Shown: positions 9,316 through 16,943 of the stretch, one piece after another
Numbering within the stretch: the first letter of the stretch is position 1
Layout of the letters: the number at the start of each line of letters is the position of its first letter
Assembly: GCA_900318995.1 (NCBI GenBank)
Contig: ONMR01000007.1
Coordinates: 32,116-96,115 of the forward strand
Origin: an uncultured Prevotellaceae bacterium
Lineage (GTDB): Bacteria; Bacteroidota; Bacteroidia; Bacteroidales; Bacteroidaceae
DNA: 64,000 nt
Direction: 5' to 3'
Translations under genes and position numbers: made by a program
Notes under the pieces: model-generated
What the model was told of the DNA's origin: nothing
Databases searched by the model: none
What the model saw: the letters and a program-made list of their open reading frames with translations, nothing else

Positions 9316-9702
9316 ATGGCGGAATCAAATAAACGCATCCAGGAGCTTACCAAAGCCGAACTGGAGATAATGCAGGTGATATGGAGTGTGGGGCGTGAAT
9401 TCGTGGTTCGCGATATTCATGAGCTGCTTCCTGATCCCAAACCTGCATATAGTACGGTATCAACAATAGTACGTATTCTTGATACAAAGGGATTCCTCAC
9501 TCACAAGACCTATGGCCATAGCAATGTCTATAAGGCGGCTGTGAGTAAGGAGGATTACACAGACTCGTTCATGCATGGTGTGCTGAACTCCTTCTTTGGA
9601 GGTTCCATCAGCACCCTTGTGAACTATTTCTCATCGCGTAAATCAATCTCCGTACAGGAGACCGATGAGATCCTTAAGATACTTGACGAAGATAAAAAAT
9701 AA
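9316..9702 (+). CDS. BlaI/MecI/CopY-family transcriptional repressor
   Basis: A 128-residue winged-helix repressor. The N-terminal domain shows the family pattern LTKAELEIMQVIW, then the recognition-helix region PAYSTVSTIVRILDTKGFL and the wing HKTYGHSNVYKAAV; the C-terminal half is the dimerisation helix region cleaved in BlaI/MecI when the partner sensor is activated. It is followed after 3 nt by an M56 membrane peptidase, the standard sensor-repressor pair. No beta-lactamase or copper transporter gene is adjacent, so the regulon lies elsewhere. In Bacteroidetes most such pairs have unknown inducers. Confidence 0.92.
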   Translation: MAESNKRIQELTKAELEIMQVIWSVGREFVVRDIHELLPDPKPAYSTVSTIVRILDTKGFLTHKTYGHSNVYKAAVSKEDYTDSFMHGVLNSFFGGSISTLVNYFSSRKSISVQETDEILKILDEDKK

Positions 9703-9705
9703 AAA

Positions 9706-12369
9706 ATGAATGCTATGAGTCCTATCCTTATCTATTATATTGAAACTCTCCTGTGCAGCGGACTATTCCTGTTGCTGTATCATTGGTTTATTGCCCGTAG
9801 GGCAGGTTACGATTTCTGCCGCAGGTACCTGATCATCACAATGGTCCTGGCATCGGCAATTCCTATGCTTAATGTACCGCTCTATCCGGCGGTAAACACC
9901 GACAGTAAGGTGGCTGTGGTAAGTGAGCCGGAAAAGGTTGAAACAGTTGGGACTGTTGCCGAAACTACATCGGCAGTATCGTCAGAGCCTGTATCAGTCC
10001 CTGTTACTGAGGTATCAACCCCGGCGCCGGAGGTATCGGCCTCAGCAGAGATTGCGACGGTGGAGCAGGCTCAGACTACCCCGGTGGCCGAAAGAAGCGT
10101 TCAGCAGGTATCTGATTTTTTGCGCCGAAACGCACTCCTTATTATATATCTCACAGGGGTGGCCGTTTCATTGCTGGCTATTGCCGGTGGAGCGGTGTCG
10201 GTGGCCAGAATCAGGCGTAAATCACATATCACACAGGCACGGTCATATGATTTGGCCGAGAGTGACGGCGTTGAGACTCCGTTCTCATTCTTGCATACCA
10301 TCTATATGGGTTACGGATATGATGAAAAGGATCGCTGCCATATACTGAGCCATGAGGCCAGTCATGTACGTCATCATCACTCCATAGAGAAACTGTTCAT
10401 GTCTTTGATGCGGTCACTGTTCTGGTTCAATCCCCTGATGTGGCTTGCCGAGAAGTGCCTGGAGGATGTACAGGAGTGGCAGGCCGATAAGGATGCCCTG
10501 TCGGACGGCTACAGGCTGGATGAATACAGACAGACTGTAGTGAACCAGCTGTTCGGCTACAACCCGGAGATGGTATCGGGGCTTAAAAGCTCATTTACCA
10601 AACGCAGACTGTTGAAAATGAAACAGACCGAATACAAAGGCGGTATAGGGCTTCAGGTTTGTGCAACCTCACTTGTTGCGACAGTTCTGTTCCTTGCTTT
10701 CGGCTGCGGACGTGCCAAGACGGCAGAGACCCCGGCGGATGCCCCGATAGACTATGAGGACCTCTACAATAATAAAAATTATATCATGACTGCCGATGAG
10801 TTCCTGGGCGATTTTTCAGGCACAAGAACCCGTACCGCAAGTTATGTGTTTGAACGTGATGAACAGGGACGCGTAATCAAGGGTGTGGAGATTTATGAGA
10901 ACAAGGATTATACTATTGCTCCCGTAACAATTGCAGTAAACGGCGTGGAAAGGGCTAAATCACCCAGAGACCGTAAACTCAGATGGATAAACAAGAGTAC
11001 CGTGATAATTATTGGCGGAAAGAAATCCACACGGGCAGACTTCCTTGCACTCAAGGAGGGGGAATATGAAAAGATATACTATTTCCGTCCCAAAGGTGAA
11101 AAGGCGGATGAATGCTCGTTTGTTTATGTCTCCACTGAGCAGCACCAGGTTGCACCAAACGGCTTTCCTGTTATAATTGATAACCCCGGATTTGACGCTC
11201 CCGATATCATAGATCCTGTAGGAATGAGTTTCTATGAAGAGATGTTCTTGTATCAGGCCGTAAATTACAGTGTTGCCACTCCTGATGCCAAATTTGTTCT
11301 TGACGGGAATTTTGTAAGTTATGATGTGTTCCAGGATTACCTGGTTAATCCTGAGAACAAGATATCTAATCTTCTTGTCTATCGTAATGATGCTGCAAGG
11401 AAGTTTTTCGGTGATGATTGCTGGGAGGTGGTTGAATGCAGTAACCGTAAGAACGTGTTTATATGGTTTGACAGGCTGCATGGCGACAAAGTGGTTCCTC
11501 AGTTGGGGCGGAACGGAAAGGAGTCCAGTTATGAGGATATCATAGATGCCATTGCCGCTGCAAAGGAATACAACAAGACAATAGGCGGACCTACGCTGGT
11601 TGACCTGCATGTTCAGAAAGATGTAACAGACAGCCAGGTTAAGGAACTGATAGATAATTGTATTGATGCTGATGATCCGGATGTGTATCTGTATATGCAG
11701 AGGACCAGACATATCGTCTCTGAAGACGGTAACGGAAACAGAACTGTACGCTCAGTCTATGATGATAATACCGATAACCTGATTGAACATGGGTATGTGG
11801 ATCTGGGCCTGTCGGTAAAATGGGCCACATGTAATGTGGGTGCTTCCCAACCGGAGGATTATGGAGGTTACTATGCCTGGGGTGAGACTGCTACAAAGAG
11901 TGATTATGTGTGGAACACATACAGATATCGTAACGGCGTTACCGGTCCATTTACCAAATATAACTCGGAACGGGGCAAGGGGACTGTTGACAAAAAGACT
12001 GTCCTTGAACCCGATGACGATGTGGCTCATGTAAGGTGGGGTGGCGACTGGCGCATTCCCACCAAGGAAGAGCTGGAGGAATTGCTTAATAACTGCACAT
12101 GGACCTGGACCTCTCTGAACGGTGTAAACGGATATCAGGTTACAAGCAACAAATCCGGATATACAGACCGCTCGATATTCCTGCCTGCAGCCGGACGTTA
12201 TCTGTCCGAAATGAAGAATGAAACAGGAACCAGAGTCTGCATAGCTACCAGTACGCAATATGATGAGAATGCCGACGGCGCTTATATGCTCTATTTCAGC
12301 CAGGATGAACGTGAAATAAAGCCTGGCTACAGGGAGTATGGAGTTCCGGTCCGTCCGGTTATGCCCTGA
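9706..12369 (+). CDS. BlaR1-like M56 membrane peptidase with C-terminal FISUMP-like domain
   Basis: An 887-residue predicted sensor protease. Two N-terminal membrane helices (about 6-24 and 39-55) are followed by a Pro/Thr/Ser/Val-rich linker (66-135), a third helix (145-165) and the cytoplasmic zinc site HEASH at 216-220, with the later Glu probably in LEDVQEWQADKDAL. A fourth helix lies near 315-332. The outer part is not a penicillin-binding domain as in BlaR1: it is an uncharacterised region (about 335-690) plus a segment from residue 695 beginning YVDLGLSVKWATCNVGA, the signature of the FISUMP family usually found in surface lipoproteins. The protein probably cleaves the BlaI-type repressor upon an unknown envelope signal. 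ATG 9706 is chosen; ATG 9715 is possible. Confidence 0.85.
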   Translation: MNAMSPILIYYIETLLCSGLFLLLYHWFIARRAGYDFCRRYLIITMVLASAIPMLNVPLYPAVNTDSKVAVVSEPEKVETVGTVAETTSAVSSEPVSVPVTEVSTPAPEVSASAEIATVEQAQTTPVAERSVQQVSDFLRRNALLIIYLTGVAVSLLAIAGGAVSVARIRRKSHITQARSYDLAESDGVETPFSFLHTIYMGYGYDEKDRCHILSHEASHVRHHHSIEKLFMSLMRSLFWFNPLMWLAEKCLEDVQEWQADKDALSDGYRLDEYRQTVVNQLFGYNPEMVSGLKSSFTKRRLLKMKQTEYKGGIGLQVCATSLVATVLFLAFGCGRAKTAETPADAPIDYEDLYNNKNYIMTADEFLGDFSGTRTRTASYVFERDEQGRVIKGVEIYENKDYTIAPVTIAVNGVERAKSPRDRKLRWINKSTVIIIGGKKSTRADFLALKEGEYEKIYYFRPKGEKADECSFVYVSTEQHQVAPNGFPVIIDNPGFDAPDIIDPVGMSFYEEMFLYQAVNYSVATPDAKFVLDGNFVSYDVFQDYLVNPENKISNLLVYRNDAARKFFGDDCWEVVECSNRKNVFIWFDRLHGDKVVPQLGRNGKESSYEDIIDAIAAAKEYNKTIGGPTLVDLHVQKDVTDSQVKELIDNCIDADDPDVYLYMQRTRHIVSEDGNGNRTVRSVYDDNTDNLIEHGYVDLGLSVKWATCNVGASQPEDYGGYYAWGETATKSDYVWNTYRYRNGVTGPFTKYNSERGKGTVDKKTVLEPDDDVAHVRWGGDWRIPTKEELEELLNNCTWTWTSLNGVNGYQVTSNKSGYTDRSIFLPAAGRYLSEMKNETGTRVCIATSTQYDENADGAYMLYFSQDEREIKPGYREYGVPVRPVMP

Positions 12370-12641
12370 CAATAATAGTAAACCGTATAATTATCCGGTA
12401 TAACATTATTTAATAGAGTGATTGTTGAAAACTTATTCATTCTGATGTGCACGTTTAAGGGAAAAGCAGTACCTTTGCGGCATGTTAAGAAAGAGAGGAA
12501 ATATTGACTGTTCACCAAAGCATAAACCCACGGGTGGTGATAGTGTTTTCAGTCATTTCATTTCATAAAGGGGGAATTGTTTAAGACGGTTTCCCCTTTT
12601 TTCTTTTTTAGGGATAGAGACTAAAACAAACATAAAACAAA
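12370..12641 (+). promoter_or_regulatory. carA upstream region and 5' leader
   Basis: This 272-nt gap has no ORF. It carries a -7 element TACCTTTG at 12470-12477, giving a transcript start near 12484 and a leader of about 158 nt before carA. Within the leader, 12513-12517 can pair with 12535-12539 (CACCA with TGGTG), and a terminator-like hairpin follows at 12567-12599. I see no leader peptide and no riboswitch class I recognise. Confidence 0.5.
12567..12609 (+). terminator. Terminator-like hairpin in the carA leader (possible attenuator)
   Basis: AAAGGGGGAA (12567-12576) pairs with TTTCCCCTTT (12590-12599) with one G-U, 13-nt loop, followed by TTTC and six T. It lies 32 nt upstream of carA and about 85 nt after the predicted transcript start. 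It can end transcription before carAB, or terminate a small independent RNA. The preceding gene stops 200 nt earlier, too far for a simple 3' terminator. Confidence 0.6.
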
Positions 12642-13703
12642 ATGACAGTATCACTAGTTTTGGCCGACGGCACCTCATTCAAGGGTGAGTCATTCGGATA
12701 CAATCAGCCCGTAAGCGGCGAGCTTGTATTCAATACCGCAATGGCCGGTTATCCTGAGATCCTGACTGAGCCCGCATCTCGCGGACAGCTCATTGTTATG
12801 ACCTATCCGGTGATAGGTAACTACGGCATCCAGCCCATGAGTGCCGATGAGAACGGGCTTCCTACCAACGCGGAGAGCGAGCATGCACAGGCGCGCGCCC
12901 TGATAGTAAGTGACAAGAGTGATTTCTACAGCCATTGGAACGCTGCCGAATCACTTGAGGAGTGGATGAAGCGTGAAAAGGTGGTAGGCATAGAGGGAGT
13001 TGATACCCGTGAGCTTACCAAGCATATCCGCAACCACGGCAGCATGACCGCCAAGATACTGTTTGACGGAAAGCAGAAACCCGCTGAGTATGCATACACC
13101 AATATGCTGCCCGAGGTATCGGTCAAAGAGCCTGTTACATACAACGAGGGTGGCGCAAAGACTGTGGTTCTGGTGGACTGCGGCGTCAAGGCTGGCGTGG
13201 TACGCTGCCTCATCAATGAGGACCTCAAGGTGGTTCGCGTTCCCTGGAACTATAATTACTCAAAGATCAAGATGGACGGCCTGGTGATATCGGACGGTCC
13301 GGGTAACCCCAGTTACTGCAGTGAGGTGGTTACAGCCCTGCAGAAGTTCATGGCTAAGAATGACACCCCGATACTGGGTATAGGTATGGGATGCCTGCTG
13401 CTTGGTCTGGCCGGCGGTATGGATACATACAAGCTCAAGTTCGGTCATCACACCCAGAACCAGCCGGTTCAGCTGGTGGGCACCGACCGCTGTTACATAA
13501 CCACCCAGAACCACAATTACGCTATCCGTGAGGATTCTGTAGTTGGTCAGTGGAAGGTGTATCTCAAGAACCTGAACGACGGATCGGTAGAGGGAATCTA
13601 CAATACACGCAAGCCCTGGGTGGGCGTGATGTTCCACTCGGAGAGCGATCAGGTAAGCACTGATGCTGAGTTTATATATGATGATTTTGTTTCAAAACTC
13701 TAA
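12642..13703 (+). CDS. carA: Carbamoyl phosphate synthase small subunit lacking the catalytic cysteine
   Basis: A 353-residue CarA homologue. The N-terminal CPSase small-chain domain is typical (LVLADGTSFKGESFG, FNTAMAGYPEILTEP, GVDTRELTKHIR) and a class I glutaminase domain follows (ISDGPGNP). The nucleophile elbow, GICLGHQ in E. coli, reads GIGMGCL at residues 246-252: the catalytic Cys is Gly248 and the following His and Gln are Cys251 and Leu252. The His and Glu of the triad survive in FHSES near the C-terminus, while the glutamine-binding NHGF is NHNY. The enzyme therefore should not hydrolyse glutamine; the subunit may be structural or regulatory as in vertebrate CPS1. It lies 12 nt before carB. 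Confidence 0.9.
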   Translation: MTVSLVLADGTSFKGESFGYNQPVSGELVFNTAMAGYPEILTEPASRGQLIVMTYPVIGNYGIQPMSADENGLPTNAESEHAQARALIVSDKSDFYSHWNAAESLEEWMKREKVVGIEGVDTRELTKHIRNHGSMTAKILFDGKQKPAEYAYTNMLPEVSVKEPVTYNEGGAKTVVLVDCGVKAGVVRCLINEDLKVVRVPWNYNYSKIKMDGLVISDGPGNPSYCSEVVTALQKFMAKNDTPILGIGMGCLLLGLAGGMDTYKLKFGHHTQNQPVQLVGTDRCYITTQNHNYAIREDSVVGQWKVYLKNLNDGSVEGIYNTRKPWVGVMFHSESDQVSTDAEFIYDDFVSKL

Positions 13704-13715
13704 CACCCTAAGGAT

Positions 13716-16700
13716 ATGGCATTGAAGAAGTATAAGAAAGTGCTGCTGCTTGGATCGGGCGCACTCAAGATAGGTGAGGCAGGCGAGTTTGATTACTCCG
13801 GTTCGCAGGCTCTTAAGGCCCTGAAGGAGGAGGGCATAGAGACCATCCTTATCAACCCCAATATTGCTACGGTTCAGACCAGTGAGGGTGTTGCCGACAG
13901 AGTTTATTTCTACCCTGTAACCCCGTTCTTTGTTGAGAAGGTTATTGCCAAGGAGCGTCCCGATGCAATCCTGCTGGCATTCGGTGGTCAGACCGCACTT
14001 AACTGCGGTGTGGCACTGGAGCAGAGCGGTGTTCTGGCCAAGTATAAGGTAAAGGTGCTGGGTACCCAGGTTAAGGCCATTATGGATACCGAGGACCGTG
14101 ACCTCTTTATAAAGCGCCTTGATGAGATAGGCGTACAGACCATCAAGAGTCACGCAGTTGAGACCATGGACGATGCACGCGCAGCTGCACGTGAACTGGG
14201 CTACCCGGTTATCATCCGTTCTGCATACGCTTTGGGCGGTCTGGGCTCTGGTTTCTGCGACAATGAGGAGGAACTGAACAAACTTGCCGAGAAGTCATTC
14301 TCGTTCTCACCCCAGATTCTTGTTGAGAAGAGCCTCAAGGGCTGGAAGGAGATTGAGTTTGAGTGTGTGAACGACAAGAGCGGCAACTCTATCATAGTCT
14401 GCTCAATGGAGAACTTTGACCCGCTGGGCATACATACCGGCGAGAGTATAGTAGTTGCTCCTACACAGACACTTACTCACCACGAGGTGCAGAAGCTGGA
14501 GGAACTGACCATCCGCATAGCCCGCCACGTGGGTATAGTAGGTGAGTGCAATATCCAGTTTGCATTCGATCCCCAGAGCGAGGATTACCGCGTTATTGAG
14601 GTTAACGCCCGCCTGAGCCGCTCATCGGCCCTGGCATCAAAGGCTACCGGTTATCCTCTGGCTTTCGTTGCCTGCAAGCTGGGTCTGGGCTATAACCTGT
14701 ATGAGCTTAAGAACTCCATAACCAAGGATACTACCGATTTCTTTGAGCCGTCGGTTGACTATGTAGTCTGCAAGATTCCGCGCTGGGATCTTAGCAAGTT
14801 CCACGGCGTGGATCGCGAGATAGGCTCATCTATGAAGTCCGTAGGTGAGGTTATGTCTATCGGTCGCAGCTTTGAGGAGGTTATCCAGAAGGGTATCCGT
14901 ATGATTGGTCAGGGCATGCACGGATTCGTTGAGAACAAGAGCATCAAGTTTGCCGATCTGGACAAGGCACTCAAGGAGCCTACCGATAAGCGCCTGTTCG
15001 CTATAAGTCAGGCATTCAGCGAGGGCTACAGCATTGACCGTATCTATGAACTTACCAAAATCGATAAGTGGTTCTTGAACCGCCTGAAGGGTATTGTTGA
15101 CCTGTCCAAACAGCTGCATAAGGTTAAGGGCATTGATGCTCTGGGCGAAGACCTGCTGCGCAAGGCCAAGAAGATGGGATTCAGCGATTTCCAGATTGCA
15201 CGCGCCATAGGTGAGGAGAAGAAACTGGGCACACAGGCTGGTCTTCTGGCTGTACGTAACAAGCGTAAGAGCTTAGGCATTGTTCCTTATGTTAAGCAGA
15301 TAGATACACTGGGCGGTGAGTATCAGGCCAAGGAGAACTACCTGTATATGACATACAACGGCTGCGCTCACGATATACCGTTCTTTGATGACAAGAAGTC
15401 TATCATCGTAATAGGCTCTGGTGCATATCGCATCGGTTCTTCGGTAGAGTTTGACTGGTGCGGCGTTCAGGCTTTGAATACCGTACGTAAGGAGGGCTAC
15501 CGCAACATCGTGATCAACTGCAACCCTGAGACCGTAAGTACTGACTACGATGTTACAGACCGTCTGTTCTTTGACGAGCTTACGTTTGAGCGCGTTATGG
15601 ATATAATAGAACTGGAGAATCCCTACGGCGTGATTGTATCAACCGGCGGACAGATTCCCAACAACCTGGCTATGAAGCTTGACGCCATGAACGTGCCTAT
15701 CCTGGGTACAAGCGCCAAGGACATCGATAATGCCGAAGACCGCGAGAAATTCTCGGCCATGCTTGACCGCATCGGCGTTGACCAGCCGGAATGGAGCGAG
15801 CTTACCTCTATGAAGGAGATTGGCAAGTTCATCGACAAGGTTGGATTCCCTGTACTGGTACGTCCATCATACGTGCTCTCGGGTGCTGCCATGAACGTTT
15901 GCAGCAACCAGGAGGAGCTGGAGAGATTCCTGCAGCTGGCCGCCGAGGTATCAAAGGAGCATCCGGTTGTAGTAAGCCGCTTCATCGAGAACGCCAAGGA
16001 GGTTGAGATGGATGCCGTTGCCAAGGACGGTGAGATAATTGCCTACGCCATCAGCGAGCACATCGAGTTTGCCGGTGTACACTCAGGTGACGCTACCATC
16101 CAGTTCCCGCCGCAGAAACTTTACGTTGAGACAGTAAAGCGTATCAAGCGCATCAGTCGTCAGATTGCCAAAGAGCTGCATATAAGCGGACCGTTCAACA
16201 TCCAGTATCTGGCCCGTGAGAACGACATCAAGGTAATAGAGTGTAACCTGCGCGCTTCACGTTCATTCCCGTTCGTAAGCAAGGTGCTCAAGATCAACCT
16301 TATCGAGATAGCAACCAAGATCATGCTTGGAATTCCTGTAGAGGCACCCGAGAAGAGCCTGTTCGACATAGATTATGTTGGTATCAAGGCTTCACAATTC
16401 TCGTTCAACCGTCTGCAGAAGGCCGATCCCGTGCTGGGCGTAGATATGGCATCGACCGGTGAGGTAGGCTGCCTGGGTGATGACCAGCGCTACGCCATCC
16501 TGGAGTCAATGCTCTCGGTTGGTTACCGCATTCCCAAGAAGAACATACTGCTTTCTACCGGTACTGCTAAGCAGAAGGCTAGTATGCTTGATGCTGCCAA
16601 GATGTTGAGCAGCAACGGATTCAATATCTATGCTACAGGAGGAACCTCCAAGTACCTTGAGGAGAACGGTGTGCCGAATACACGCGTATATTGGCCCAGC

Positions 16701-16943
16701 GAGGAGGGACAGCAGCCGCAGGCTCTTGATATGCTGCACAACAAGCAGATTGACATGGTAGTGAACATACCTAAGGATCTGACTCAGCATGAGCTCACCA
16801 ACGGTTACAAGATCCGTCGTGCAGCCATTGACCTGAACATCCCGCTGATTACCAACGCCCGTTTGGCCAGCTCGTTCATCAATGCGTTCTGCACCGTTAA
16901 CATAGATGATATACCAATCAAGAGTTGGGACAGCTTCAAATGA
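13716..16943 (+). CDS. carB: Carbamoyl phosphate synthase large subunit
   Basis: A full-length 1075-residue CarB. Two homologous ATP-grasp halves are visible: the first starts LLLGSGALKIGEAGEFDYSG, with IRSAYALGGLGSG and VGECNIQFA; the second starts around residue 565 with VIGSGAYRIGSSVEFDWCG and VRPSYVLSGAAM. The C-terminal MGS-like regulatory domain contains YATGGTSKYLEENGV. It makes carbamoyl phosphate from bicarbonate, two ATP and ammonia for pyrimidines and arginine. Segments such as GEAGEFDYSG, VNARLSRSSALASKATGYPLAF and KIPRWDL look closer to eukaryotic CPS than to E. coli CarB. The stop codon is the first triplet of an inverted repeat. Confidence 0.95.
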   Translation: MALKKYKKVLLLGSGALKIGEAGEFDYSGSQALKALKEEGIETILINPNIATVQTSEGVADRVYFYPVTPFFVEKVIAKERPDAILLAFGGQTALNCGVALEQSGVLAKYKVKVLGTQVKAIMDTEDRDLFIKRLDEIGVQTIKSHAVETMDDARAAARELGYPVIIRSAYALGGLGSGFCDNEEELNKLAEKSFSFSPQILVEKSLKGWKEIEFECVNDKSGNSIIVCSMENFDPLGIHTGESIVVAPTQTLTHHEVQKLEELTIRIARHVGIVGECNIQFAFDPQSEDYRVIEVNARLSRSSALASKATGYPLAFVACKLGLGYNLYELKNSITKDTTDFFEPSVDYVVCKIPRWDLSKFHGVDREIGSSMKSVGEVMSIGRSFEEVIQKGIRMIGQGMHGFVENKSIKFADLDKALKEPTDKRLFAISQAFSEGYSIDRIYELTKIDKWFLNRLKGIVDLSKQLHKVKGIDALGEDLLRKAKKMGFSDFQIARAIGEEKKLGTQAGLLAVRNKRKSLGIVPYVKQIDTLGGEYQAKENYLYMTYNGCAHDIPFFDDKKSIIVIGSGAYRIGSSVEFDWCGVQALNTVRKEGYRNIVINCNPETVSTDYDVTDRLFFDELTFERVMDIIELENPYGVIVSTGGQIPNNLAMKLDAMNVPILGTSAKDIDNAEDREKFSAMLDRIGVDQPEWSELTSMKEIGKFIDKVGFPVLVRPSYVLSGAAMNVCSNQEELERFLQLAAEVSKEHPVVVSRFIENAKEVEMDAVAKDGEIIAYAISEHIEFAGVHSGDATIQFPPQKLYVETVKRIKRISRQIAKELHISGPFNIQYLARENDIKVIECNLRASRSFPFVSKVLKINLIEIATKIMLGIPVEAPEKSLFDIDYVGIKASQFSFNRLQKADPVLGVDMASTGEVGCLGDDQRYAILESMLSVGYRIPKKNILLSTGTAKQKASMLDAAKMLSSNGFNIYATGGTSKYLEENGVPNTRVYWPSEEGQQPQALDMLHNKQIDMVVNIPKDLTQHELTNGYKIRRAAIDLNIPLITNARLASSFINAFCTVNIDDIPIKSWDSFK

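Follow-up and report, generated by a model that had tools for sequence, protein, structure and literature searches.

A bacterial carbamoyl phosphate synthase small subunit without its glutaminase nucleophile, and its predicted dependence on free ammonia

Carbamoyl phosphate synthases (CPS) that work with ammonia only are already known from vertebrates. Vertebrate CPS1 is described as unable to use glutamine, its catalytic Cys being replaced by Ser; the same paper suggests an alternative entry of ammonia into CPS1, and reports normal activity on external ammonia for E. coli variants in which the tunnel is blocked or perforated (PMC4655335). For the bacterial enzyme, CarAB (CPS II), a second source treats C269 and H353 of the small subunit as essential to glutamine hydrolysis, and puts the ammonia need of the E. 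coli enzyme at a very high, likely irrelevant level (PMC6245113). A review names glutamine as the preferred and physiologically relevant nitrogen donor. Among amidating enzymes, a class of mostly glutamine users, the ammonia-type NAD synthetase (NadE) is a bacterial enzyme that takes ammonia, and Table 1 of the paper that describes it lists, among 600 genomes, none with a CarAB devoid of glutaminase and, among 800, none with a domain-less PyrG (PMC3376133). That survey counts domains and subunits, and the loss of a residue would escape it.

Here we describe a carAB pair in a 64,000-nucleotide stretch of DNA (the window; its features are collected in Table 1), which we read from its sequence as encoding a CPS that cannot hydrolyse glutamine and would use free ammonia instead. 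We put the probability of this reading at roughly 0.85; both the activity and the use in vivo are inferred. Aligned with full-length wild-type E. coli CarA, the window protein has Gly for C269, Cys for H272, Leu for Q273 (Leu252 of the window protein) and Asn for G313, together with Ser for P354, Val for G359 in the tunnel wall and Ala for S47, while N311, H353 and E355 are unchanged. We take the pocket positions beyond C269 and H353 to be glutamine-binding, and G359 presumably forms part of the wall of the ammonia tunnel. An E. coli C269G mutant was reportedly once made and retained its ammonia activity. The CarA/CarB pair exceeds the NCBIfam cut-offs for TIGR01368 and TIGR01369, models that still label such proteins glutamine-hydrolyzing; this automatic name is probably wrong for the window protein, since it lacks the nucleophile as well as the tunnel-wall Gly and two residues of the glutamine pocket.

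Table 1. Features of the carAB locus and its leader, with positions counted from the first letter of the window
Feature	Position	Strand	Remarks
TAccTTTG, resembling the Bacteroidota -7 promoter box	12470..12477	+	sequence likeness
28-codon leader ORF, directly after the promoter-like box	12482..12568	+	close congeners have a similar stretch ahead of carA
Terminator-like hairpin and T-run between leader ORF and carA	12567..12609	+	z = -3.04 (155-nt leader)
carA, CPS small subunit, glutaminase nucleophile lost	12642..13703	+	353 aa, ATG start
CPSase small-chain N-terminal domain	12654..13058	+	residues 5-139, Pfam PF00988 (CPSase_sm_chain)
Class I glutamine amidotransferase domain, dead by sequence	13167..13691	+	residues 176-350, Pfam PF00117 (GATase)
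Nucleophile elbow GIGMGCL (E. coli GICLGHQ)	13377..13397	+	residues 246-252
Gly248, at the position of E. coli Cys269	13383-13385	+	alignment to E. coli CarA
Glutamine-pocket motif NHNY (E. coli NHGF)	13509..13520	+	residues 290-293
FHSE, triad His and Glu kept, Pro354 replaced by Ser	13632..13643	+	residues 331-334
Val338, at the position of E. coli CarA Gly359	13653..13655	+	alignment
carB, CPS large subunit	13716..16943	+	key ATP-site and ammonia-tunnel residues kept

With CarAB the locus shares the order carA-carB, the domain make-up and the key CarB residues, and it differs in lacking the nucleophile, the two pocket residues and the tunnel-wall Gly. NadE has no glutaminase domain at all, whereas the window CarA retains the domain and has lost no more than its catalysis. 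The closest parallel is human CPS1, where the glutaminase domain is likewise kept but dead, with Ser in place of Cys (the earlier note had rightly pointed to the loss of this Cys in vertebrate CPS1), with Leu for Gln273 in both proteins and with the triad His and Glu retained as in the window CarA. An AlphaFold2 model of the window CarA built from 28 sequences (mean pLDDT 90.6) has human CPS1 chains as all of its best 10 PDB matches (TM 0.95, 41% identity), followed by E. coli CarA (TM 0.91, 32% identity), and human CPS1 was again the top match in a sequence search. The PDB matches listed for the window CarA include 1m6v, which we take to be the G359F mutant structure. The differences are that vertebrate CPS1 is a single polypeptide and the window enzyme is a bacterial one with separate carA and carB, and that CPS1 has Gly where the window CarA has Val (G359) and Asn (G313).

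To determine the spread of the loss, 37 genomes of the genus, the window's own included, were searched with the PF00988 profile; all are drafts, and absences of genes in them rest on incomplete assemblies. That the genus is kin to the Bacteroidaceae is an inference from its closest named relatives, which are Phocaeicola, Prevotella and Bacteroidales MAGs. The Cys is absent from all 33 readable window-type CarA orthologs, being replaced by Gly in 29, by Asp in two (G003 and G272) and by Glu in two (G001 and G126), and this agreement rules out a sequencing error at the elbow, which the earlier note had named as a possible refutation. Its other readings of the small subunit were borne out by the same alignment: the window's elbow reads GIGMGCL and its pocket motif NHNY instead of NHGF; in 33 of 33 orthologs Leu stands for Q273 and Asn for G313, and His353 and Glu355 persist in every one. 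Val or Ile occupies the G359 position in 33/33, as against Gly in all 58 rows with an intact Cys (family and second copy). The replacement of the elbow His by Cys is real too (H272), but it carries less weight than had been given to it, since Asn is the usual residue there in relatives whose Cys is intact. As for the four other genomes, the CarA of G013 ends before the elbow, G004 (62% complete) gave no match, and in G015 and G019 an intact-type CarA was the only one found. In G012 (contig C27, 46028-47084) the window-type carA is split over two frames, through a frameshift or an assembly error.

In a second genus of the family, 15 of 19 genomes gave a match, and none of the 13 window-type CarAs has the Cys. 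Eight of these genomes have an unfused CarA in which His353 is also lost (Ala), with Arg at the G359 position in 8/8; in the other five CarA is fused to CarB and both Cys and His are lost (Asn at the His position in four, Cys in one), with Gly at G359 in 5/5. The genomes with this fused, dead-glutaminase CarA-CarB (loci L244, L257, L260, L262 and L266) each have an intact unfused CarA as well. Outside these two genera the picture changes: the 36 CarAs fetched from the family's other genera all have Cys, His and Glu (40 stretches were fetched, four of them of the second genus, and some genomes with a match were left out). The earlier note had asked whether the change is clade-wide in Bacteroidales; the loss holds through the genus, but a loss throughout the order is rejected by these 36 intact rows. 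Across 223 distinct CarA rows, a sample enriched in the window's relatives from which rows of 250 aa or less had been dropped, 175 have the Cys and 48 do not. Two further defective cases lie beyond these groups. A Bacteroidales MAG (L054) has Gly and Tyr at the Cys and His positions in the sole carA found in its genome, and a goat-rectum MAG (G297; L084/L273 and L272) has two CarAs, both with broken glutaminase residues, one with Gly/Asn/Glu and the other with Cys/Gln/Asp, where Cys is kept and Gln and Asp replace His and Glu.

We required of the partner CarB two ATP-grasp halves and conserved ATP-site residues, and it has both. At the functional sites listed, all 23 CarBs of the locus keep R129, R169, E215, E299, N301, R303, R675, R715, E761, E841, N843 and R845, and also the tunnel residues E217, C232, R306, A309, E604 and R848. 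Differences from E. coli fall at E208, V284, H754, L756, I352, G575, N992 and several effector-site positions, the first four being the only ones among 27 listed ATP-site positions; most are common to family CarBs whose CarA is intact, V352 being an exception. In G019 a carB lies without an adjoining carA (L195:5682-8912).

The earlier note had advised searching for a second, intact carA, and the window's genome does contain one (elbow GICLGNQ), with a carB, on contig C40. It follows that the cell as a whole need not rely on ammonia for carbamoyl phosphate, and the presence of this glutamine-type pair counts against the ammonia reading of the window enzyme. The second carA is surrounded by dapL, dapF, gltD, gltB, a type III glutamine synthetase (GSIII), asnB, amtB, glnK, pyrG, purF and glmS, and similar neighbours adjoin it in other carrier genomes. 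This nitrogen-assimilation island (L324 and L325; G000 contig C40, 1-40000) was detected in some species of two genera and went undetected in others. An intact carA was found in 20 of the 37 genus genomes, 18 of which also have the Cys-less type, and in 16 of the 37 the Cys-less carA is the sole one detected. Four of these 16 absences are doubtful, namely in G018 and G010, which hold pieces of the island, and in G274 and G279, which are nested among carriers. No sign of the island was seen in the remaining 12 (G001, G003, G014, G017, G023, G024, G108, G126, G271, G272, G275 and G276). These 12 congeners, so far as drafts and sequence can tell, seem to lack the second carAB and to have the Cys-less enzyme as their only detected CPS, and congeners without the intact copy would depend on ammonia for carbamoyl phosphate.

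That dependence could be illusory if the missing intact carAB were an artefact of assembly or binning and no species in fact relied on the Cys-less enzyme, an objection to the physiology rather than to the enzyme and one we hold to be unlikely. It draws on the draft state of every genome and on known cases: G018 (100% completeness) had been taken as a true lack of carA2, and this was withdrawn as a probable assembly gap, for its contig bearing glnN and the end of pyrG breaks off at the point where gltB and carA2 would be expected; a carB fragment of G010 has a second-type score; and G274 and G279 sit among carriers. Against it are the 12 further congeners, four of them 90-98% complete, and a GC content of the 20-kb island part (0.44-0.53) like that of the window (0.45-0.53). 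A missing contig would also leave unexplained the Cys-less pyrG that G001, G126, G091, G110 and G287 possess.

This second amidotransferase, CTP synthase (PyrG, PF06418), was sought in 30 genomes, of which 17 gave a match and 16 are readable at the elbow (G296 is incomplete there). All 11 readable PyrGs from island genomes, the partial island of G018 included, keep Cys, His and Glu, while the Cys is lost in 5/5 genomes with a readable PyrG and no intact CarA found: Gln replaces it in G001 and G126, with His and Glu kept (L322 and L319), and Gly replaces it in G091, G110 and G287, where His and Glu have become Tyr and Gln (L316, L317 and L315). G287 also has an incomplete CarA piece of undetermined type. 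The split gives p = 0.0002 with kinship ignored, and represents only two independent changes; all three residues are kept in ten control PyrGs from family or related loci. No PyrG match was obtained in 13 genomes, none of which has an intact CarA that we could find (G108, 98% complete, and G271, G023, G024, G017, G014, G275, G276, G272, G003, G285, G291 and G297).

Other amidotransferases do not all follow. The PF13522 profile (AsnB, GlmS, classical PurF), run on 21 genomes, exceeded its cut-off in five island genomes but gave no such match in the 12 island-less congeners or in G091, G110, G285 and G291; its sub-threshold matches in G003, G091, G110 and G285 are a PurF-like gene beside carA. 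Since the profile misses or underscores this gene, its silence speaks only to the AsnB and GlmS types. With PF00117 in six genomes, a putative HisH, so labelled from motif and size, keeps its Cys in 6/6, and the PurF-like protein, among the matches listed, keeps a Cys near its N-terminus; loss of the Cys therefore does not extend to every amidotransferase. GuaA was confirmed in G018, is likely in G000 (a 571-aa frame), and was not among the PF00117 matches listed for G001, G108, G126 and G271. G126 has a GdhA 58% identical to that of E. coli, as well as a GlnRS; AsnA, NagB and GuaA were not found in about 507 kb of its approximately 2.1 Mb, which is no proof of absence. In favour of the ammonia-dependent reading, at least two genes of the carbamoyltransferase family occur in 36 of the 37 genus genomes; going by score class, we interpret them as PyrB plus an ArgF relative. 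Taken together, the losses in PyrG and CarA suggest a broader move away from glutamine towards free ammonia, a suggestion drawn from residues in draft genomes with no activity data behind it.

In mechanistic terms, the enzyme would combine free ammonia with bicarbonate, at the cost of two ATP, to give carbamoyl phosphate. CarB would perform all of the chemistry, with ammonia reacting with carboxyphosphate inside it after reaching that site either directly or via a remnant of the passage, and the dead small subunit would be retained as a structural or conformational partner, an inferred role in assembly and signalling. Replacement of the tunnel-wall Gly by Val or Ile in the genus and by Arg in the unfused second group fits, at the level of residues, a passage no longer needed, but the fused group and CPS1 keep their Gly. 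The ammonia prediction of the earlier note is thus supported as the best reading of the sequence, with CPS1 as the nearest solved relative, and three observations besides the intact second pair count against it. The first is the ammonia need of the E. coli enzyme; no lower Km has been demonstrated here. The second is that His353 and Glu355 are kept in 33/33 orthologs, since an idle site would apparently not need them, and such strict conservation of the pocket within the genus could reflect a new ligand rather than a mere scaffold. The third is the set of listed CarB positions that depart from E. coli, V352 among them without a parallel in family CarBs of intact CarA.

The same conserved pocket, and the co-occurrence of both carA types in 18 of 37 genus genomes, would suit a Cys-less CarA that is a regulatory or scaffold subunit, its CarB being fed by another glutaminase (the intact CarA2 or an unknown partner). 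We find this improbable: the 12 congeners with neither a second carA nor a sign of the island offer no CarA2 for pairing, carA and carB are neighbours at this locus, and the tunnel wall of this CarA is altered. Still harder to sustain is a relocated nucleophile, by which Cys251, three residues downstream, would allow glutamine to be hydrolysed as before. Cys251 is indeed invariant in 33/33 genus orthologs, with His and Glu kept, but the model places it in the helix that follows the elbow (H249-257), a Cys at the 251 position accompanies the nucleophile in an intact relative (L030), 5/13 CarAs of the second Cys-less genus carry Asn or Ser instead, and Gln273 and Gly313 are lost.

For window-type carA the median dN/dS is 0.095 and the maximum 0.155 (197 pairs from 28 sequences, limited to dS 0.15-1.5), with 0.079 for the GATase half vs 0.109 for the N-terminal half; the intact second type gives 0.049 (169 pairs). 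Window-type carA is under purifying selection, though less constrained overall than the intact type, and these low values indicate that the dead domain is kept and not decaying, which disfavours a pseudogene. That carA1 might be a decaying duplicate, a chance survivor after the intact copy arrived, has the long CarA branch (0.93 vs 0.14 for CarB) and the split frame of G012 on its side, but with the GATase half constrained like the rest, and as the only detected carA in 16 genus genomes, 12 of them without any island sign, the gene leaves next to no room for that view.

As to descent, the CarBs of both Cys-less groups form one clade (SH-aLRT 99) inside the family in a tree of 43 rows made by a quick method; its neighbours are family CarBs whose CarA is intact, and the CarBs of the intact second copies group separately, as a clade outside the family. 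From this placement the Cys-less pair is the vertically inherited one, and the intact second pair looks acquired. The far longer branch to the genus in the CarA tree than in the CarB tree implies a small subunit that changed fast after losing its glutaminase work and later came to rest. In CarA trees the Cys-less rows fall outside the family, near the midpoint root and on long branches; we set the CarA tree alone aside as a guide to descent and attribute this placement to long branches, given that the corresponding CarBs nest in the family and that an upstream PurF-like gene is shared. This gene (~628 aa) immediately precedes carA in 29 of 38 family stretches and, where congener stretches reach far enough upstream, in 13 of 27; its product (L168, L181, L239) scores far below the NCBIfam purF cut-off. 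The window's stretch is among the 14 without it, having instead two other ORFs (9316-9702 and 9706-12369) that we take to be a BlaI/M56 pair. In the leader, the promoter-like box was judged against what we assume to be the Bacteroidota -7 consensus, the hairpin is a possible attenuator, and Rfam gave nothing above cut-off (top match 23.4 bits vs a cut-off of 58.7).

We recognised no report of a bacterial CarA naturally without the Cys, or of a paired PyrG loss, in a literature whose coverage was partial, with subscription papers mostly outside it. A conserved Cys-less bacterial CPS would be a counterexample to the review's view of glutamine as the preferred donor, with intact sister genera for comparison, and would have arisen independently of the vertebrate urea-cycle enzyme. 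Whether a Bacteroidales clade now runs the nitrogen chemistry of its pyrimidines, and probably of more than these, on free ammonia instead of glutamine, with glutamine types found only in species that carry the island, is to us an evenly balanced question, the affirmative resting on a vertically inherited CPS and readable PyrGs without nucleophiles and on AsnB and GlmS types that went undetected; the parallel loss in CTP synthase would make it a testable case of a lineage abandoning glutamine as amide donor. By inference, the Cys-less enzyme most likely draws on free ammonia for the synthesis of arginine and pyrimidines, in the manner of the urea-cycle enzyme of liver, and, if so, species with both pairs would have two CPS isoenzymes, for high and for low ammonia, much as GDH stands beside GS/GOGAT.
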